Origin: Nilaparvata lugens
Lineage: Eukaryota > Arthropoda > Insecta > Hemiptera > Delphacidae
DNA: 64,000 bases
Assembly (NCBI RefSeq): GCF_014356525.2
Contig: NC_052510.1
Location: 16,540,778 to 16,604,777 of the forward strand
Direction: 5' to 3'
In this document: one piece after another, positions 6,366 to 60,659 of the stretch
Numbering within the stretch: the stretch's first letter is position 1
Layout of the letters: the number at the start of each line of letters is the position of its first letter
Translations under genes and position numbers: made by a program
Notes under the pieces: model-generated
Told to the model about the DNA's origin: nothing
The model's database searches: none
The model's input: only the letters and a program-made list of their open reading frames with translations

Positions 6366-7845
6366 CACACATTTTGATAAATAGGAGTCTCCAAAACAAT
6401 GAGGTTATGTATACACTTTTCTATATTGTGAGATCAATTTTCACTCAAAAATAACAATAATTGTTTGATAATATTGCACCAGAGAATATTCATTAATTCA
6501 AAATATAAAATGAAAAATTAAACAAATTTTTGTATGTTAGATCAGCTCATTTTTTATAAATAGTACAATTCCTTCATGTAGAGATGTTCTCCGAGTAGAG
6601 AGAAAAGTATTTTATTCTTTCCCGGGAATATAGATGATTGATTGCGAACAACTCAAGTTAAGTGCGACACTCATATTTTCCTCTACGAATTAGAACGTGA
6701 AATTGATTTCCAGAAGAAAATTCTCAATTAGGGATTACGTCATGAGCTCCTGTGTTCAATTAACAGTTAATTGGATGTGAGTGCTCTCTAGCTCAGAATG
6801 CACCAGAAATATAATCCCATACTTACACACTGTACAAAGCTTCATAGATATTACATGCAGCCATGTACCGAGTACATATATGTGAGGATATAAATAGTAT
6901 TCCATTACTCCATAAGGTTATGAGGTACAATATTGTTGTTTCAGAGATTATTTCGAATATCACAATTTTGTACTGTGCACTCAAATGGCTGATGGGGATG
7001 AGGCTGGAAATTCATGAAGCTGCCATTTCCAATCAATTAGCCAGAAATGCGGCTACTCGCGTTATGCATATAAATTCCAACTCTGATCAGAATGGAGTAG
7101 GGCTTTGCTGTTAAATTGAGGAGAACAGCTGCTCTCTGCCTTTGAACAGGATTCAGGTATGTCGTGTTACTTTGATTCAGCTTTTGGAAAAAATTCGTAA
7201 TGAATGTGCTTGGCTCCGCTTTTCCACAACAAGGATTTGGAACGTACAAAACAATGTACTTCAGTTTTTCAAAGTTTCATTGCTACATTTTGATTTCACA
7301 ATAACATATTATAACGAATAAAAAATACCAACTATTCCTTCAATCTTTCTTGGAAGAGCACGTACATTTTCCAATTTTTTCCTCGATCTTCACTCCATTT
7401 TTGTGTGGGAGAAAGAATAATAGCTGCTTGTGGAGTATTTTCACTTCACCGATCTCAGAGCTAGGTGAATGAATCAAACTCTACCGCTGACTCCATAATT
7501 TCATGTTTTCTTCAATTTCTCATGATCTTCACGATTCTTTCTCACTACGCCAAGAATCGCAGTTGTTATTCAGCGTGACAGCTATAAGATGATACGGTAA
7601 TCCGTCCACCACCTATTGAAGACCTGATCGAGATATTTGCAGCTGATATGGCCACCAGTCCACCGTGGATTACCCGCACTCGGCCCTACTTTATTTTATT
7701 CCTTTCCGATCGAAACGCGAACGAGAACAGCCAAGAGCCCATTTCACAGAACCTTAGCGCCTCGGCTTGGATTAGAAACACTTCCAAAGTGCCTGTCTGT
7801 TTTCGTTTCGGCTTTCTTTCCAGGCAAGAAATACAACTCTGTTTT
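6366..7845. other. No gene recognised; GC-richer patch at 7.6-7.8 kb
   Basis: Mostly AT-rich DNA. The stretch 7600-7830 is more GC-rich and open in more than one frame, but I see no domain, clear splice pair or family resemblance. Confidence 0.4.
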
Positions 7846-8552
7846 TAGTGGAGAGAGAAGGAGCAGGATAAGAAGGAGAAGTAGGTAAGATGGTGAAAGA
7901 GTGCTGAAAATGCGGAGGGGTAGAATGGGCATTGGGAGAGAAATATGAGAAGGCTGGAAGGTATTTCAAAAGAAGAACAGGATGGAAAAAGAGAAAGGGG
8001 AAGAAAAGAGGACAATGGAAAGAAAGAGAAAAAGGAGAGAACCAAGAATAGTGGGAGTACAGAAAAGAATTGACCAGGATGATAGTGAATAATTCTATGA
8101 CTTGGGAAAAGGAACAGAATAAATTGGAAGAAGAGATGAGTGAGGAAGTGGAGATAGTGTAATACACGAAGGAAGAGGCAAACAAGATAAGGCCAAGAAC
8201 CTGGACTCAGTGAATGAGGAGATGAAATATGAAGAAGCTGAGAGAAGGAATATTATTAGAGATGAAAAAATGTCTCGGTATAGTAAGAGATAGAAAATTT
8301 GAAAAGCAAAAGCAGAGAAAAAGCTAAATAGGAGTGACCAGCATCATGACTTTGATGGAAAAATAGAATAAGGCGGAACAGGAAAAAGCTAAATGAGAAA
8401 GAAGAAGAGAAAATATGCATAAGAGAGTTTTCCGAAGCCAAGTAGAAATCATGAAATAGGTAACCAAGCGAGAGAAGTACGTATGTCTCCATGAAATAAG
8501 AGAAGATAACGGGGAAAAGTACGAAAATCCTCGAAAAACTAGGAGTGAGAGG

Positions 8553-8770
8553 GATTAGATTAGATTAGATTAGATTCCTTTATCTATGTATGTTACAATA
8601 TTTACTGGCTCATACACTAATTTGCATTACATGACAATAATGCTAGTTATTCAACGAATATCACAAAGTATAAATAATTAATCAATGAGAATAAATATAG
8701 AAATGCAATTAGAATAACGATACTATAATAATGTGATGTAACTTCATAATTCGGCGGTGTTTCAACAAAT
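8553..8770 (-). repeat. (GATTA)n-ended repeat tail, inverted
   Basis: About five GATTA units (8553-8577) are followed by ccttta and AT-rich unique-looking sequence. A pentamer array at one border is how many non-LTR elements end. In this orientation the array marks the 3' end of a minus-strand copy. No coding remnant is visible next to it. Confidence 0.45.
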
Positions 8771-9139
8771 AATTGACGATTCTTCAGAAGGATATAAAAT
8801 ATCCTTCCCAAAAACACACGACCGGGTTGTGAAGAATTAGATGAAATATAGATGAAAAATGGGGAAAAATATAGATGAAAAATAGGGATGAGAGAGTAAC
8901 AAGCAAAAATGAATTATGAAACGAAGATGATGAAGACAACGAAGAGAAATGAATAAGAATAGTATGAAAAGAGACTTTAGTAGAGAAAAGACTACAAGAT
9001 GAGGAAAGTAGAATCAGAGGGAACATTGTTTGAGGAAAAAGAAGTTGTAGCAGAAGTTGAAGAGAACTGGAGCTGAAGATGAGAATGATAGAATAACTGA
9101 TAGCTGCAAAAGAGGCTGAAGAATGGAGAAGGAAAGATA

Positions 9140-9235
9140 ATGAATGAATAATAAATTTATTGCCAAATACAAGTCATATTTTTACAAATAAAATGATCAT
9201 CAAATTACAATAGTTTTTTGCTATTACTTTTACAA
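9140..9235 (-). repeat. Possible short retroposon tail inside the purine tract
   Basis: The sequence aataataaatttattgccaa and the following AT-rich bases interrupt the purine tract. They resemble the inverted TAA/A-rich 3' ends of short retroposons such as the one at 42308-42400. Weak evidence. Confidence 0.25.
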
Positions 9236-9912
9236 TAAGTATGGGAAAATAGAGAAAGGATAGAAGGATCAGAGATGAGGAGAAAAATATGGTGGTGGCT
9301 GTAGTTAGAGAAATGATAGCAGATAGATAAAGTAATGAGAAACTAAAGATGGAGAAAAGCTGTATTAGATAATAGGTAGGTGAATAAGTAATAGCGGTGA
9401 AGAGATTTAAGGAAGAGAAGTGATGAGAAGAGAATATGCGGAGAGGTAATAGAAGGAGGTTGGGAAATGGAGGAGAGTGAAAGAGTGAAAGATTGAGAGA
9501 TAGGAATGTCAAGAAAAAAGGAGAAAGTGAGAATGGATTAGGGAAAGGGTGGATAAAAGATAGAGAAGGTGGAGAGGTAAAAAGCAGGAGTTTATGTTAT
9601 GGAGGAGGGTGAAAAAGTGGAACAGAAGAAAGTAAAGAAAAAATAATAAAGTGAAAGTGGATGGGAGAAAGGATGAAAAGAAGATAGTGAAGGTGAAGAG
9701 GTGAGGGTATAGAGGAAAGAGTGGGAGAGAAAAAGGCAATAAGGGAAAAGGCAAGGAAAAAGAAGAAAGTGGCAGGAGGTGAAGGTATGTAGGGAAGGGT
9801 GGAAGAGAAAAAGTCTAGGAAAAAAAGAGAAGAGAGGCAGCAGGTAAGGGTATAGAGGGCAGAGTGAAAAAGAAAAAGTCAAGAAAAGTGAGAATGAATG
9901 TTGGTGAAGTAG

Positions 9913-33745: not shown

Positions 33746-33757
33746 TCGATGAGATTG

Positions 33758-33965
33758 TCAATTTGGTGTAAGGGTAAGCATTCCCGACCCGACTAGCAAT
33801 TGGGAGGTACCGGGTTCGATTCCCGGGGTGGCAACTCATTTTTGGATAGTAGTTCTCATCGAATTTCCATCTAGCTGTCAACCCTGCTGTTGTCAATTTC
33901 TGCAGTAGCAGAAGTCTTCGGGGTGATGTACAGCATTTATTTAGGATTTTCGTTAAATAATATTT
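33758..33965 (+). mobile_element. tRNA-derived SINE
   Basis: The head (33758-33838) has an A box-like tggtgtaagggtaagcattc and a perfect B box ggttcgattcc inside cgggttcgattcccgg, which pairs as a T-arm. The body (catcgaatttccatctagct, ctgcagtagcagaagtcttc, ggggtgatgtacagcattta) ends AT-rich near 33965. Terminal pairing of the head is incomplete, so it is a SINE promoter rather than a functional tRNA gene. Together with the inverted tail to its left it forms a hairpin-capable unit of about 340 bp. Confidence 0.7.
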
Positions 33966-36660: not shown

Positions 36661-36818
36661 TTACTTCAACAACAAGAGAATCGTCCTACAATGTGCAGAA
36701 ACATTTAAAGTGTTGATAGAATAAAAATAATAAATTGTTACCTTATTGCTCATTTTACCATTAATAAGCTACTGAAAAATTCAATCGATTTCATTCAACT
36801 CTCCTTCACCACTTTAAT

Positions 36819-37346
36819 GTGTGTTGTCCTCTGAGATCCAAAAAAAACTTCAAGAATAAAAAGAGTGACATAAAAGGTAACTGGATAACTCAGGAGTTGG
36901 AGCAAATGCGCCTATATCTGAACATGGCTACCCAAAGGATGAAGGCAGGACAAGAGGTGGATATGAGTGCAATAAATAGAATTAAAAAACATTATGATGC
37001 GGCGGTTGTCACAGCAAAGAAAAACTTTTACGGCGATTTTATTTCTAAATCTGACAACAAATCCAAAAGTTGCTGGAACGTGATCAATAGCTTCAGAGTT
37101 GATGGGAGCAGAACTACAAGTCAGTCCAGGATTGCTGAAATTAAAGTTGATGATGAGATGATTAGAAATCCAAGTGAGATAGCAAAGATGTTTAATGAGC
37201 ATTTTGTGTCAGTGGGAATGCAAACTGAAAGAGAGAGATTGAAAAGCAGTGCTAGAGAAGGATTTGCGAATAGTATGCCTGAACCAAACCATAATATGTT
37301 TCTCTCTCCAACAAATGCATATGAAGTTCTCTCCATCATTAATTAA
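36819..37346 (+). pseudogene. LINE ORF2, pre-RT linker (upstream part)
   Basis: An open frame of 175 codons with a basic N-terminus (RSKKNFKNKKSD), GNWITQELEQMR, a KKNFYGDFISKSDNKSKSCW stretch and an IAKMFNEHFVSVG motif. This is the segment between endonuclease and RT in jockey/CR1-type ORF2 proteins, where 'W..I.......K..WN.IN' and 'A..FN.HF...G' are recurrent. The ATG is incidental, because the natural ORF began further 5' in sequence that is lost. The frame stops at TAA 37344-37346, just after the protein continues in the next frame, so a one-base indel lies around 37330-37340. Confidence 0.7.
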
Positions 37347-38862
37347 GAGTATAAAATCTAAGCGAAGTAAAGGTTATGATGGATTATCTATGAGTGTAAT
37401 TGAAAAATGTATTAGCGAGCTAATTTCCCCTCTCGTCAACATCATAAACTCAATGCTTGAACAGGGAGTTTTCCCAGATCGCCTGAAAATCTCTAAAGTC
37501 ACTCCTATCTATAAAAAAGGAGATATAACGAATATCGCTAATTATCGACCCATCTCAATTCTGCCCGCCCTCTCAAAAATTTTCGAAAGAATAATCCATA
37601 TAAGATTAACTAGATATTTGTTCAAATTCAAGCTTATTCCTTCCTATCAATATGGTTTCGTCAAGGGGAGATCGACTATTGGTGCAGCAATAAATCTGTA
37701 TGAGAGAATATTAGATGAATTAGATAAAGGAAATCACTCCTCGGCTGTTCTCTTAGACCTCTCGAAGGCCTTTGATCGTGTCGATTTCAAGGTCCTGCTG
37801 ATTAAATTGCGAGGCCTGGGAGTGAGAGGTATCCCCTACCAACTATTGGAATCATACATAACTGAACGCATTCAGTATGTCACCATATCTTCGACCTCTG
37901 GAGAAGTTTCCTCTTCCAAAATGAAACTTAAATTTGGCGTCCCTCAGGGTTCAATCCTGGGCCCGCTACTCTTCCTTCTGTATATTTCTGATGTTCATTC
38001 AGCGGTATCTGACAGAGTTCACTTGACACTATATGCTGACGACACAACTCTTTTTTTCTCAGATAAAGATGTGAATAATTTTGAAATAGACATGAACATC
38101 TCCACAAATGCTGTTGTTCAGTATTTCAATGAAATCTGCTTATCAATTAATTCTACAAAAAGTCAAACTATCCACTTCAAATCTGCCGCTACTCTTCCTC
38201 AATTATGTATTGGAGAAGATGAAATTGAGTGCACGGATACAGTTAATATGTTGGGGGTGTACTTTGATGACAGGTTGACATGGACAATGCATGTTGATAA
38301 TATTGTGAAGAGAATAAGTAAAAGTCTCTTCCTCTTAAGAAATCTTGCGAAGTATGTCCCACAAAACACCGTTAAAGTTGCATACTTCGCTACTTTTTAC
38401 TGTTACCTCACATATGGTATAGAGCTTTGGGGTTGTACCACAAAGGAAAATATGCAGAGGGTCTTTGTACTACAAAAGAGGGCAATACGGTATATAGCGG
38501 GCCTTGGATTTAATCACCCCTGTAGAGATGCGTTCAGATCATTGTCGCTGCTGACGGTGCCTTCGATTTACATGTTTAGAATGATCATGCATACTGTAAA
38601 AAATAGAATGGACCAGACACTTATCTCCGATACACACTCCTACAACACTAGAGGCAGAGACAACTTTGCGATTCAGCCGCATAGGAGGAAGCTTTTTGAG
38701 GGTAAGCCTAGTTACTCAGGCTGCAAATTTTATAATAAGCTTCCTATACATTTAAAGCGTGCATCCACCAGCATTCCTCTTAATAGATTTAAAACCGACC
38801 TTCAAAAATATTTTATAGACAAAGCCTACTACACGGTGCAGGAGTATTTGGAGGATCATTGA
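37249..38862 (+). CDS. LINE reverse transcriptase (ORF2, main part)
   Basis: RNA-directed DNA polymerase of a non-LTR retrotransposon. True homology starts at about residue 28 (SLIKSIKSKRSKGYDGLSM), since the first residues are read out of frame. RT motifs run in order: KVTPIYKKGD...NYRPISILP (about 83-105), YGFVKGRST (135-143), LLDLSKAFDRVD with the first catalytic Asp (168-179), GVPQGSILGPLLF (230-242), and YADD with the paired catalytic Asp (262-265). After these come a WTMHVDNIVKRISKSLFLLR thumb-like segment and the C-terminal tail HSYNTRGRDNF, then YNKLP. All RT catalytic residues are intact. The jockey/CR1/L2 side of the non-LTR tree fits best. No RNase H domain is visible. The upstream part of the same protein is in another frame at 36819-37346. 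Confidence 0.85.
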   Translation: MLEKDLRIVCLNQTIICFSLQQMHMKFSPSLIKSIKSKRSKGYDGLSMSVIEKCISELISPLVNIINSMLEQGVFPDRLKISKVTPIYKKGDITNIANYRPISILPALSKIFERIIHIRLTRYLFKFKLIPSYQYGFVKGRSTIGAAINLYERILDELDKGNHSSAVLLDLSKAFDRVDFKVLLIKLRGLGVRGIPYQLLESYITERIQYVTISSTSGEVSSSKMKLKFGVPQGSILGPLLFLLYISDVHSAVSDRVHLTLYADDTTLFFSDKDVNNFEIDMNISTNAVVQYFNEICLSINSTKSQTIHFKSAATLPQLCIGEDEIECTDTVNMLGVYFDDRLTWTMHVDNIVKRISKSLFLLRNLAKYVPQNTVKVAYFATFYCYLTYGIELWGCTTKENMQRVFVLQKRAIRYIAGLGFNHPCRDAFRSLSLLTVPSIYMFRMIMHTVKNRMDQTLISDTHSYNTRGRDNFAIQPHRRKLFEGKPSYSGCKFYNKLPIHLKRASTSIPLNRFKTDLQKYFIDKAYYTVQEYLEDH

Positions 38863-55250: not shown

Positions 55251-55620
55251 GGTAGGCTTCCTTGCCATTTACAAGTAATTTATGTTTTGCTGCCTCGTAA
55301 CACACATTTCATTGTATCTCTGTTATGCTTTATCCGATTCTCATTTTTTTGGTGTTGACTGATTGTAAATAAAATTTCCTAAAAAAAATTGTTCTTGGTA
55401 AATTTCTCTATCACCGTTTTCCCGCAATAAATTTTGGATTGAAATTTTAAAATGGCCGCCATTTTGAATTTTCGAATAGGACAAAGTTGAATATTTTTCT
55501 ACAGTTCATCTCTCTTATTTGAACATACCTACCGATTTTTATAGCGATCGGTTGGATAACTTCGAAGATAAAAATTATTGGCTCTTTAGAGGCGCACTAA
55601 GAACGGATTTGGAAAAAATT
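55251..55620. other. Unassigned repeat-like DNA
   Basis: It contains the palindromic aaaatggccgccattttg and agcgatcggt motifs, and leads directly into the minisatellite. It may be the left part of a larger mobile unit that includes the minisatellite. No coding frame. Confidence 0.35.
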
Positions 55621-55623
55621 GGA

Positions 55624-56271
55624 AAGATACGACCAAAATCTGCGTTTTTCCAGCGTTTTCTCAGCTTTATCGAGAACAAATGAACAGAAAATGATCAAAT
55701 TTAGTACAGAAGCTCAGCTAGGGTGTAATAATGTTGTGTTAGAAGTAATTAGCAATAACGTCAAAGATACGCCCAAAATCTGCGTTTTTCCAGCGTTTTC
55801 TCAGCTTTATCGAGAACAAATGAACAGAAAATGTTCAAATTTAGTACAGAAGCTCAGCTAGGGTGTGATAATGTTGTGTTAGAAGGAATTTGTAATAACG
55901 TTAAAGATACGCCCAAAATTAGCGTTTTTTTTTCTCAGATTTATCGAGAACAAATGAACAGAAATAGTTCAAATTTAGTACAGAAGCTAAGCTAGGGTGT
56001 AATAATGTTGTGTTAGAAGGAATTTGAAATAACGCCAAAGTTACGCCCAAAATCTGCGTTTTTCCAGCGTTCTTTTTGCGCTTTCTCAGCTTTATCGAGA
56101 ACAAATCAACAGAAAATGTTCAAATTTACTACAGAAGCTCAGCTGGGGTGTAATAATGTTGTGTTAGAAGGAATTTGAAATAACGACAAAGATACACCCA
56201 AAATCAGCGTTTTTCCAACGTTTTTCTCAGCTTTTCTGCGTTTTCTCAGTAATTTGACGAGCGACGCGAGC
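55624..56271 (+). repeat. Minisatellite, 4-5 units of 134-153 bp
   Basis: Units start near 55624, 55763, 55903, 56037 and 56190 with agatacgcccaaaatctgcg, followed by tttttccagcgttttctcag, ctttatcgagaacaaatgaa and cagctagggtgtaataatgt. The last unit is incomplete and runs into gacgagcgacgcgagc just before the mini-Polinton. Confidence 0.85.
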
Positions 56272-56277
56272 ACGCTG
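56272..56277 (+). repeat. 6-bp target-site duplication, left
   Basis: acgctg immediately left of the element end AGTAGGGG. The identical acgctg lies immediately right of the other end (59821-59826). Six base pairs is the duplication length made by Polinton/Maverick integrases. Confidence 0.85.
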
Positions 56278-57111
56278 AGTAGGGGTAAAGTGAGACTTCT
56301 GGAGAAAAGCTGCCCCCAAGCTGCCCCCAAATCTACCCAAATCTGATTCTTGGTTCTAACCTTGCCCAATCCAATGTAATCCGATCTAACCTAACCTAGC
56401 CATACCCCTAATCTCACAATAAACCTCAAATGAAGATTTCCCACTTTTTTGGAAAAAAAAACCTAGATCCAGCTTTTTTTATTTCTTGAATAACTAAGAA
56501 ACCGTTAATTTTACAAAAAATCTACAAGAGTAACTTTTTCCAGTAAATCTAATAACGAATCCATTGACACCCCATTTGTCAAGATTGAACAAAAAATAAG
56601 GATCTCATAGATCCAGTTTTTTTATTTCTTGAATAACTAGGAAACCGTTAATTTTACAAAAAATCTACAAGAGTAACTTTTTCCAGTAAATCTAATAACA
56701 AATCCATTGTCACCCCATTTGTCAAGATTGAACAGAAAATAAGGATCTCATGGAAAAACTAGATCCAGTTTTTTTATTTCTTGAATAACTAAGAAACCGT
56801 TAATTTTACAAAAAATCTACAAGAGTAACTTTTTCCAGTAAATCTAATAACGAATCCATTTGTCAAGATTGAACAGAAAAAGTAGATCCAATTTCTTGAA
56901 TAACTAAGAATAATTTTTTTCAGTAAATCCATTATTTGTCAAGGGATCCTAACTCTGAAACTGAGCAACAAGCATTTTTATGTTGAGACCCTTTCTTAAA
57001 CCTCAGCACTAAACCCCCCCCCCACCACCCCACAGGGGGGGGGGGGGGGTGCTGGGGGCTTGACCCTCTGCCTTTAACTGAACTACTTGAAAACTCACCT
57101 CAGGTTGTATT
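56278..57111 (+). repeat. Left terminal inverted repeat of the mini-Polinton
   Basis: From outside in: AGTAGGGGTAAAGTGAG, a duplicated agctgccccca, a taacctaacctag patch, three and a half units of a 145-150-bp internal repeat (starting near 56466, 56611, 56761, 56885: gatccagttttttta, cttgaataactaagaaaccg, aatctacaagagtaacttt), then a C-run/G-run hairpin (57014-57047), and gttcag.taaaactcacctcaggttgtatt. It lacks a 9-bp ggaaaaact present in the right arm. Confidence 0.9.
57014..57048. repeat. C-tract/G-tract hairpin inside the left TIR
   Basis: A run of about ten C, then accaccccacag, then sixteen G. It can form a very GC-rich stem in otherwise AT-rich DNA. Its mirror copy is at 59041-59078 in the right TIR with slightly different run lengths. 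Confidence 0.85.
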
Positions 57112-57137
57112 GAGAAGGAAAAAAATATATAATAAAA

Positions 57138-58345
57138 ATGTATAAGAAAGAAGTCAAGTCGGATATATTACTTGTTGATCAGAGTGTACATCTTGATGAG
57201 AGTATTACCAAATATGATTATATCACTCACACACCATATATTCAACAGACATTTAATTACAATGATGAAATTCGAATTAGTTTGAAACAAGAAGATATTT
57301 ATACACTTCCAAGTAGGAGTTTTCTCATAATTGAAGGCGAAATCAAAGTGAAAGATAAGAATGATGTTGAAACCAAGGACTTTTCACTTATCAATAATGG
57401 AGTTGCATACCTATTTGATGAAATCAGATATGAATTGGGAGGGGTTGAAGTTGATCGCACACGTAATGTAGGATTGACAACAACCATGAAAAACTATCTA
57501 CGTCAATCAAAACTCAATGAAAAAATTATGGAGAATGCAGGATGGAAGTTGACTGGATGGAAAAGTTTAGATAAATTCTGCTTTTGCATTCCTTTGGATA
57601 TGTGGTTAGGTGTAATGGAAGACTATAGAAAAGTTCTATTAAATGTTCGTCAGGAAATTGTTCTATTAAGATCATCATCAGACTTAAATTGTATTGAATC
57701 AGAGACAGCAAAATCGGTGAAAATTGATATTACAAAACTACAATGGAAAGTACCCTATATACATGCTTCTGACACTGTTCGTCTTGATCTGCTGAGTTTA
57801 CACATAGTGATATACCAATTACCATTCCATTCAGGTCATGGGAATTGCATGAATTTCCACAATTACCTGAAACTACTAATCTTCAATGGACAGTTAAGAC
57901 AACTTCAAACATATTGAAACCTAGATTCATTATTCTTGGATTTCAAAAGAATAGGAAAAATGTTATAACTGCTAACAGGTCACATTTCGATTTCTGTAAT
58001 CTGAACAATGTTAATCTCTATTTAAATGCTCAATCATTCCCCTATGAAAATATTGTTGGTAATAAACATTTATTGTATCACATGTTCTCTGAATTCCAAA
58101 ATGAATACTATCCTTATAACAGCAGTACATCAATTGAGTATAAAACATTTGATGAATATGCACCATTGGTTGTTATAGACTGTAGTAAGCAAAATGAACT
58201 ATTGAAATCTGGTGCAATAGACATAAAGTTGACATTGGAAACAACAGATAATTTCTCAGAAAAAACCAGTGCCTACTGTTTAATCCTCTATGATAATGAG
58301 TTTGAATATACACCACTGAGTGGAACAGTAAAAAGAGTATTATAA
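57138..58345 (+). pseudogene. Capsid-like protein gene of the mini-Polinton, one frameshift
   Basis: Two overlapping frames (57138-57917 and the continuation to TAA at 58343-58345) together form one protein of about 400 codons. The switch falls between an in-frame stop of the second frame at 57787 and about 57830. Seen in part 1: an N-terminal IYTLPSRSFLIIEGEI strand pattern and a NNGVAYLFDEIRYELGGVEV block. Seen in part 2: PRFIILGFQKNRKN, NVNLYLNAQSFPYENI and VVIDCSKQNELLKSGAIDI, giving a beta-rich layout. The type is familiar to me from arthropod and cnidarian genomes as the probable double-jelly-roll major capsid protein of Polinton/adintovirus-like elements, and 400 residues is near the minimum for that fold. 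The family call is inference. The ATG at 57138 lies 27 bp inside the left TIR after an A/T-rich TATATAATAAAA. The frameshift could be decay, an assembly error or programmed. Confidence 0.65.
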
Positions 58346-58428
58346 ATCTTCTATAAAATAACAAAGAACTAGACAATATTCAAATCGAAAGTATTATCTA
58401 CAAATGTATCAATATTTTACCTTCAGCA

Positions 58429-58554
58429 TCATCCCATTAATTTATAGAATTGTTCTTGTCTTGATCTCCAACCATTTTCTTCAAATTTAATTTTAAAGCA
58501 TTTTATATTATTATTTGATTTATCAGCTTCTTTCAAAGCAAAATACTCACTGTG
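58429..58554 (-). other. Candidate second exon of the small minus-strand gene
   Basis: A 42-codon minus-strand frame, closed upstream by TAG (58557-58555) and ended by TGA (58431-58429). Its composition is protein-like (EYFALKEADK...FEENGWRSRQEQFYKL). Acceptor-like AG sites (AAATAG, GCACAG) sit at its start. Donor-like GTGA sites (ATAG|GTGAAA near 58697, and AG|GTGAGTACACCCAG twice near 58640-58678) sit after the first exon. A splice of about 110-140 nt would lengthen the small protein to around 125-130 residues. Prediction only. Confidence 0.4.
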
Positions 58555-58616
58555 CTATTTATATGAGCTTAGATTTTTCATTAAAGTTGAATAATGTTCT
58601 TGGTCTGGGTAACCAA

Positions 58617-58682
58617 ACCTACATTTTTTCTGGGTGTACTCACCTACATCTACAATTTCTTTCTGGGTGTACTCACCTAAAC
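58617..58682 (-). repeat. Short direct repeat carrying donor-like sites
   Basis: ctgggtgtactcacctaca and ctgggtgtactcacctaaac lie 36 bp apart. Read on the minus strand, each gives AGGTGAGTACACCCAG, a near-ideal splice donor, directly behind the stop of the small gene's first frame. Confidence 0.6.
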
Positions 58683-58955
58683 CTAAGATTTTTCACCTAT
58701 ATTTATTACATTTTTTTCATACCATTCTTTAAAAGAGATTCCAGAAGAAAGTGAGAATTGTTGGATTAAGTTTGGATCAGTCATATACTTCCATTCTTTT
58801 TCATTATTGAGATTGATGTTTGGTATGAAAGTAGCAGCTAATGGTATACATTGTAAAAAATGGAAAAAATTCTGAATCAAATTTTTGATATCAACATTAA
58901 TATCACTATTATTATCTTTATCATACAAATATCGACCAAATTTATCAACACTCAT
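58683..58955 (-). CDS. Small convergent protein of the mini-Polinton, unknown
   Basis: A 90-codon frame from ATG 58955 to TAG near 58683, starting about 25 bp inside the right TIR behind TTATTATAAAAATAG. The protein begins MSVDKFGRYLYDKD, has a short hydrophobic/aromatic stretch (FFHFLQCIPLAATFIP) and a WKYMTDPNLI...ISFKEWYEK part. I recognise no family. Base composition equals that of the capsid-like gene. It runs towards that gene, and the two leave about 340 bp between their ends, of which a second exon could use 126. A minor virion or replication-accessory protein would be plausible from context, but nothing in the sequence proves it. Confidence 0.55.
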   Translation of the reverse strand: MSVDKFGRYLYDKDNNSDINVDIKNLIQNFFHFLQCIPLAATFIPNINLNNEKEWKYMTDPNLIQQFSLSSGISFKEWYEKNVINIGEKS

Positions 58956-58979
58956 GATCTATTTTTATAATAAATGTTT

Positions 58980-59820
58980 AATACAACCTGAGGTGAGTTT
59001 TCAAGTAGTTCAGTTAAAGGCAGAGGGTCAAGCCCCCAGCACCCCCCCCCCCCTGTGGGGTGGTGGGGGGGGGTTTAGTGCTGAGGTTTAAGAAGGGTCT
59101 CAACATAAAAATGCTTGTTGCTCAGTTTCAGAGTTAGGATCCCTTGACAAATAATGGATTTACTGAAAAAAATTATTCTTAGTTATTCAAGAAATTGGAT
59201 CTACTTTTTCTGTTCAATCTTGACAAATGGATTCGTTATTAGATTTACTGGAAAAAATTACTCTTGTAGATTTTTTGTAAAATTAACGGTTTCTTAGTTA
59301 TTCAAGAAATAAAAAAAACTGGATCTAGTTTTTCCATGAGATCCTTATTTTCTGTTCAATCTTGACAAATGGGGTGACAATGGATTTGTTATTAGATTTA
59401 CTGGAAAAAGTTACTCTTGTAGATTTTTTGTAAAATTAACGGTTTCTTAGTTATTCGAGAAATAAAAAAAAACTGGATCTAGTTTTTCCATGAGATCCTT
59501 ATTTTTTGTTCAATCTTGACAAATGGGGTGTCAATGGATTCGTTATTAGATTTACTGGAAAAAGTTACTCTTGTAGATTTTTTGTAAAATTAACGGTTTC
59601 TTAGTTATTCAAGAAATAAAAAAAGCTGGATCTAGGTTTTTTTTCCAAAAAAGTGGGAAATCTTCATTTGAGGTTTATTGTGAGATTAGGGGTATGGCTA
59701 GGTTAGGTTAGATCAGATTACATTGGATTGGGCAAGGTTAGAACCAAGAATCAGATTTGGGGTAGATTTGGGGGCAGCTTGGGGGCAGCTTTTCTCCAGA
59801 AGTCTCACTTTACCCCTACT
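58980..59820 (-). repeat. Right terminal inverted repeat of the mini-Polinton
   Basis: Inverted copy of 56278-57111 with very few substitutions, some G/C-run length changes and a 9-bp insertion. From inside out: aatacaacctgaggtgag, G/C-run hairpin, 145-bp repeat units, gctaggttaggttagatc, duplicated gggggcagctt, and the end CTTTACCCCTACT. Confidence 0.9.
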
Positions 59821-59826
59821 ACGCTG
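59821..59826 (+). repeat. 6-bp target-site duplication, right
   Basis: acgctg directly after the terminal CCCCTACT, identical to 56272-56277. Confidence 0.85.
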
Positions 59827-59925
59827 ATCTTATTTTTATACGATCCAGTCGGGGGTCCAGGGGGCGGAGCACCCTGGCTAGACGGGTATGGCGAGCGAAG
59901 CGAGCCTGACGGCTAGTTCTTTATA
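59827..59925 (+). repeat. GC-rich remnant of the repeat into which the element inserted
   Basis: gatcttatttttatacgatc is followed by a cagggggcggagcaccctgg near-palindrome, then ggcgagcgaagcgagcctga. The left flank holds a similar gacgagcgacgcgagc, so both sides appear to be pieces of one earlier repeat (minisatellite plus GC-rich end) that was split by the insertion. Confidence 0.45.
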
Positions 59926-59938
59926 AAAGGATACCAAC

Positions 59939-60139
59939 CTCTTTCTTTCCAGCTTTGCTGGTCTTCTTATAGGTTTGGTTAGCTTTCTTGGGAGCCGGCT
60001 TTTCTTTGACAGTTTCTTCGAACAGATCTTTGGCCAACTCATCGTCGTCTTTCATCTCATTCTGATCGACAGCAAACGAAGTGCCGAAGCGCACTACTTT
60101 CTTCGCTGTCGGTGTGTGCGTGTACGATTTCCTTGGTGG
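59939..60139 (-). CDS. Ser/Thr-rich basic protein, unknown: penultimate coding exon
   Basis: A 201-nt exon (67 codons, phase 0 at both ends) between TTTTTAG|CCACC and AAAGAG|GTTGGT. It encodes PPRKSYTHTPTAKKVVRFGT, an acidic DDDELAKDLFEE stretch and a lysine-rich KPAPKKANQTYKKTSKAGKK stretch. KKVVRF resembles the K-x-V-x-F type of PP1-docking motif (inference), and the basic runs suggest a nuclear protein. The donor (GTTGGT) is weaker than usual. Its 3' end lies only about 20 bp from the GC-rich repeat that precedes the mini-Polinton insertion. Confidence 0.7.
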
Positions 60140-60659
60140 CTAAAAACACACAAAGAAAATTATCATTTTGAGAATAGAAAAAGGAAGGAGTTTAGAAGTT
60201 TTAAATTATGTATTACAAATGACAAGTTTAATTTCATAGATTAATTTGTCAATTGTAATTTATTTTTCATTCATTAATTTGATACAATATTATATCGTTT
60301 AAGTGGTAATTGAGTGAAATATTTCAAATTATTGATCAATTAACTTAAGCCATCTAAATTCAAAATTTACAGTTTCCATATTTATTAAATTAACTAAAAT
60401 TGTATAGGAATTGTACGTGATTTGCATTATTATTTCAACTACCAATATTATTACATTAGTGTCATTTGTATCGTAAAAGGGAAATAAGAAGAAGAAAGTT
60501 ATGGAATCTTGAAAATGAGCTTTTTTGTGTAACATCACAAGCTCGTTAGTAACTACCAGTACCTGAAATATAATCTGTTCCAAATTATTTTGCAAACCAA
60601 TGTAAAATATCAGGTAGTTAACAATAAACACCTGTATAAAGTGGGTTATATTAAATATT
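60140..60659 (-). other. Intron DNA, no feature
   Basis: AT-rich intron sequence between the 60-kb exon and the family-A tail. Confidence 0.4.

Follow-up and report, generated by a model that had tools for sequence, protein, structure and literature searches.

The 3,543 bp insertion at 56278–59820 (coordinates refer throughout to the window, the whole 64-kb stretch of DNA analysed) is most likely a real, young, non-autonomous derivative of an adintovirus/Polinton, with a hexon (capsid) gene that is genuine but broken, and an orphan ORF. We give a probability of about 60% to the reading that it represents a recent germline insertion of an internally shortened adintovirus/Polinton, served by the enzymes of a full-length relative. 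Particle formation by animal Polintons is still debated, and an element stripped of everything but a recognisably whole shell gene would be a case in which nature had separated the capsid from replication; it would make it testable whether Polinton satellites or divided Polinton genomes exist. Should the element have arisen by accidental deletion, it would be an ordinary non-autonomous element, of use chiefly as evidence that these repeats are enough for mobilisation in trans.

The hallmarks of Polintons are a 6-bp target duplication, AG...CT ends and long inverted repeats. The earlier note had claimed all three for this insertion, and each was re-found. The left end reads AGTAGGGGTAAAG from 56278 and the right end CTTTACCCCTACT up to 59820, with the boundary features placed as follows.

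56272..56277, no strand: target-site duplication ACGCTG, left copy (perfect, 6 bp)
56278..57111, + strand: left terminal inverted repeat, 834 bp, begins AGTAGGGG (from the repeat alignment)
56463..56860, + strand: tandem array in the left repeat (2.7 copies of a 143-bp unit)
58980..59820, − strand: right terminal inverted repeat, 841 bp, finishes CCCCTACT (from the repeat alignment)
59221..59641, − strand: tandem array in the right repeat (2.7 copies of a 154-bp unit)
59821..59826, no strand: target-site duplication ACGCTG, right copy (perfect, 6 bp)

The left and right repeats align over 847 columns, 828 of them ungapped, and differ by 4 substitutions and 8 gap events; blastn identity was 97.3%. 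A young insertion is suggested because the repeats differ at only 4 of 828 sites; with an assumed substitution rate of ~3e-9 changes per site and year, and if the repeats were identical at insertion, the 0.48% divergence would correspond to an age of roughly 0.8 million years. The 21-base terminal sequence was matched twice in the window, at the two ends of the element (up to 3 mismatches allowed; 0 matches expected from 100 shuffles), and had 0 matches in the viral contig collection; neither blastn nor the 21-base end scan gave a second copy of the element within the 64-kb window. Near the inner edges of the repeats, at 57012–57051 and 59037–59076, a C-run and a G-run surround a short stretch and could pair, and the lengths of these runs are unequal between the left and right repeats. 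A tandem array with a 140-bp unit (4.3 copies, 55623–56234) stops ~40 bp upstream of the element.

Between the repeats, the capsid-like gene occupies 57138–58345 in two overlapping frames, and a small ORF faces it.

57138..57797, + strand: hexon part 1, the first jelly roll, 220 codons (PF21738 profile positions 2–141)
57800..58345, + strand: hexon part 2, the second jelly roll in the other frame, 181 codons and stop (PF21738 profile positions 153–313)
58683..58955, − strand: orphan ORF, 90 aa, convergent with the hexon gene

The hexon ATG at 57138 lies 26 bp inside the inner edge of the left repeat; the first frame encodes 259 aa before its stop at 57917, and the second is open from 57788 to 58345. 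Both parts matched PF21738 (double jelly roll-like domain, profile length 316) with E values of 1.9e-41 and 1.7e-46, respectively, and their 220 and 181 codons contained 0 stops, compared with shuffle means of 17.8 and 14.0 (1000 shuffles each). The nearest relative was P0002 (410 aa; 70% over 87% of the query). The fold of an intact hexon relative is that of a viral double-jelly-roll capsid, and the PF21738 family includes the named adintovirus hexon P0119. The capsid-like gene of the earlier note is, on these three counts, a true double-jelly-roll capsid gene; a misreading is ruled out by the agreement of fold and family, and a new capsid family by the membership of a named adintovirus hexon in the known PF21738. 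The hexon of the Megastigmus wasp adintovirus, placed in Eupolintoviridae by NCBI taxonomy, was 40% identical to part 1 and 49% to part 2. In two trees part 1 was sister to P0002, the pair being joined next by a Nilaparvata protein and P0026; by path length in the same trees, the nearest rows after P0002 were P0013 and others, not the Nilaparvata protein or P0026. Support from these trees for a hemipteran host is therefore weak; the genome is probably that of an insect. Relative to an alignment of 73 proteins, the hexon parts kept 19/19 invariant columns and 69 of the 73 columns conserved to at least 90% (95%), where the 73 reference rows, which themselves defined the conserved columns, kept 97% in the median and never less than 79%. 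Because these family-conserved columns were kept, we infer that the hexon was constrained until near the time of insertion.

Further searches with hexon-family queries gave no additional relatives. A sequence search of solved structures with A2 found nothing with an E value of 1 or below; pattern scans of the viral contigs with P0030, A2, P0179 and P0119 gave 3, 28, 3 and 0 stretches, respectively, with no relative among them; and a scan of bacterial and archaeal contigs with A3, a collection that says little here, gave 28 pattern stretches and no relative. Among the hexon-family matches listed were P0028, P0033, P0120 and P0186 (Venturia canescens), and the parasitoid wasps Venturia, Diachasma, Leptopilina, Microplitis and Cotesia each had at least two listed hexon-family proteins, many of ~400 residues.

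A single break near 57.8 kb interrupts the hexon frame between the two jelly rolls, so that the whole protein is not obtainable by ordinary translation. The earlier note was right that the gene is real and had overlooked this break; its suggestion that the element builds its own particle finds no support in this copy, where the hexon frame is interrupted. The coding region is otherwise complete, because part 1 aligns to residues 14–225 of P0002 (72%) and part 2 to residues 227–410 (68%), and the same alignments rule out an intron at the break. A programmed frameshift appears unlikely, because the first hexon ORF holds no canonical slippery heptamer in frame, and the one canonical heptamer present is out of frame and far from the break. 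A deliberately split hexon keeps some small probability, because the break falls at the junction of the jelly rolls and certain adintovirus hexons are reported, in the available part of one source, to be truncated after the first jelly roll, others being duplicated (PMC11071296). In a set of 72 Polintons, the capsid genes were full-length in 46 and split in 13, according to the available text of another (PMC4028283); split capsid genes are therefore common among Polintons, and the hexon break here is ordinary.

The 90-aa ORF begins 24 bp inside the inner edge of the right repeat. It is probably a real gene, because shuffles of the 634-bp spacer seldom gave an ORF of at least 90 aa (4/2000 on the same strand, 17/2000 on either strand). 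It had no match in Pfam or PHROGs; its homologue search, which covered proteins of ~50–157 residues, yielded 1 candidate and no match; and the 3 NCBIfam rows and 5 PDB rows all had E values above 0.05. The single-sequence model was helical and of low confidence (pLDDT 64.8). This ORF, with no Pfam match and a low-confidence helical model, is also the sole candidate for a penton in the element.

Beyond the repeats and the hexon gene the element has only 26 + 634 bp, in which the longest ORFs are 90 and 63 aa, and the only stop-to-stop frames of at least 130 aa in the element are the parts of the hexon. A protein-primed DNA polymerase B and an RVE integrase are absent from the element, which has no space for them at normal size, and the packaging ATPase and maturation protease are likewise absent and without space. 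The earlier note held that polymerase, integrase, protease and ATPase had been lost, and this is borne out, genes of normal size being unable to fit within 26 + 634 bp. No Rfam match reached the gathering score within 55500–60500. The element is thus Polinton-like at its ends (ACGCTG on both sides; 834 and 841 bp repeats; AG...CT), yet no full member of the group: the four replication and packaging genes are missing, and its 3,543 bp compare with 15–20 kb for an autonomous Polinton.

In known Polintons, a protein-primed polymerase carries out replication and a retrovirus-like integrase the insertion, as described in the portions available of two reports (PMC6431247; PMC4028283). We infer help in trans because the element has the duplication and matching repeats without a polymerase or integrase or room for them. 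In the favoured reading, replication would start from the long inverted repeats, which the integrase would also use as its substrate; both polymerase and integrase would come from a full-length relative sharing these ends, and that relative's integrase would have produced the 6-bp duplication. Each gene starts close to the inner edge of a repeat and is preceded by TATA-like A/T runs, so each repeat may carry a promoter; transcription from the inner edges would then run convergently through the hexon gene and the gene for the small orphan protein. The hexon would have been inherited from a full-length parent, of which the middle was lost to give the present element, and would have stayed constrained until about the time of insertion; in this copy it is now broken. 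Two observations sit poorly with this account. Random deletions would be expected to leave a fragmentary capsid gene more often than the whole coding region seen here; and the small ORF is without matches, although a remnant of a parental gene might have given one (within a search limited to proteins of at most 157 residues).

Of the alternatives, the one that survives best, which we still consider unlikely, is a maintained family of capsid-carrying satellites of 3–4 kb, with hexon and small ORF under selection and with replication and integration borrowed, which would package themselves or interfere with a helper. The hexon coding region being whole save for one break, its conservation typical of the family, a small ORF exceeding the usual chance length, and the tidy symmetric layout with both ATGs 24–26 bp inside the repeats all argue for it; a broken hexon, a single copy in the 64-kb window, and the lack of a recognisable penton, protease or packaging ATPase argue against. 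A bolder form of the idea, which we regard as improbable, places the element within a divided or parasitic adintovirus system: as a hexon-only DNA segment or satellite it would depend for replication and integration on another element with the same repeats, it would supply or poison shell protein under the control of its 90-residue partner, and this copy would be a recently broken one in a family that still works. A chance deletion product is preferred over a satellite or segment because the hexon is broken in the only copy seen.

An assembly artefact, in which a longer element has lost its middle or a base error has broken the hexon, is very improbable. Assembly is difficult for long inverted repeats that contain tandem arrays and G/C runs, and the repeats here differ by more gap events than substitutions (8 versus 4); against this stand the orderly gene layout between the repeats and the clean duplication.

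Very improbable, too, is one segment of a segmented or multipartite adintovirus whose polymerase, integrase and packaging genes reside on other segments with the same repeats. A single main gene flanked by long terminal repeats is the form that a segment takes, and there is a precedent in a lineage sharing the polymerase type: Vesanto virus of Drosophila (bidna-like) may have as many as twelve segments, with terminal repeats that are similar on many of them, although its authors advise caution over the repeat sequences (PMC8363768, in the part available). Vesanto virus resembles the element in its short genome pieces between terminal inverted repeats, and its polymerase is related to that of the adintoviruses. 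Bidnaviruses differ in having a capsid of parvovirus type (PMC11071296, available text), and bidna-class contigs that appear to be integrated are described without mention of 6-bp duplications in the available part of the report (PMC8363768). The adintovirus contigs described in that same part are, moreover, single molecules of 13–15 kb (PMC8363768).

That another DNA transposon making 6-bp duplications, as other superfamilies likewise do, captured an adintovirus hexon gene is equally very improbable: the terminal repeats were matched to no Polinton here, but one origin is simpler for a Polinton-type duplication, ends and gene together.

The closest known systems are the insect adintoviruses and Polintons (Eupolintoviridae, e.g., the Megastigmus wasp adintovirus), which have a homologous hexon of ~400 residues (PF21738) and share the Polinton-type ends with a 6-bp duplication. 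They differ in size (13–20 kb versus 3.5 kb), and the element, unlike them, lacks a recognisable penton and has no room for polymerase, integrase, ATPase and protease. In comparisons with virophages, of which mavirus and Sputnik are examples, identity was ~10%; virophages have larger gene sets and protist hosts. Complete or near-complete adintovirus contigs from Drosophila samples are 13.3–14.6 kb, and the 14.6-kb contig has homologues of polymerase, integrase, capsid, protease and FtsK, as given in the part of that report available (PMC8363768). Capsid genes of adintoviruses are plastic, with truncated or duplicate hexons in some genomes (PMC11071296, available text). Nine of 72 Polintons were without capsid (MCP) genes and likewise without protease and ATPase (PMC4028283, available text); these are reduced too, but by the opposite loss, since the present element keeps only the capsid gene. 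Spodoptera Mavericks, in which a parvovirus-like capsid protein replaces PY, are again insect Mavericks of unusual capsid content, but have five genes and a capsid of another class (PMC5803895, in the portion available). No description of a capsid-only Polinton was found in the literature text examined, and a literature search by name returned no paper on non-autonomous or truncated Polintons. Such elements may be in print in subscription journals, most of which lie outside the scope of that search, or in Repbase reports, which to our knowledge also do.

Elsewhere in the window, the strands are asymmetric over two kilobases at ~7800–9900, one being purine-rich (GC skew reaching 0.87 and AT skew 0.62); tandem repeats there are only minor. 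An open frame of 539 codons (37243–38862, + strand) that encodes a reverse transcriptase domain (PF00078 at E 1e-31) is probably a retroelement, and its start is overlapped by a 192-codon open frame at 36768–37346. A single tRNA-Ala (AGC) was called by ARAGORN at 33756–33835 on the + strand, and may represent a gene or a tRNA-derived repeat.
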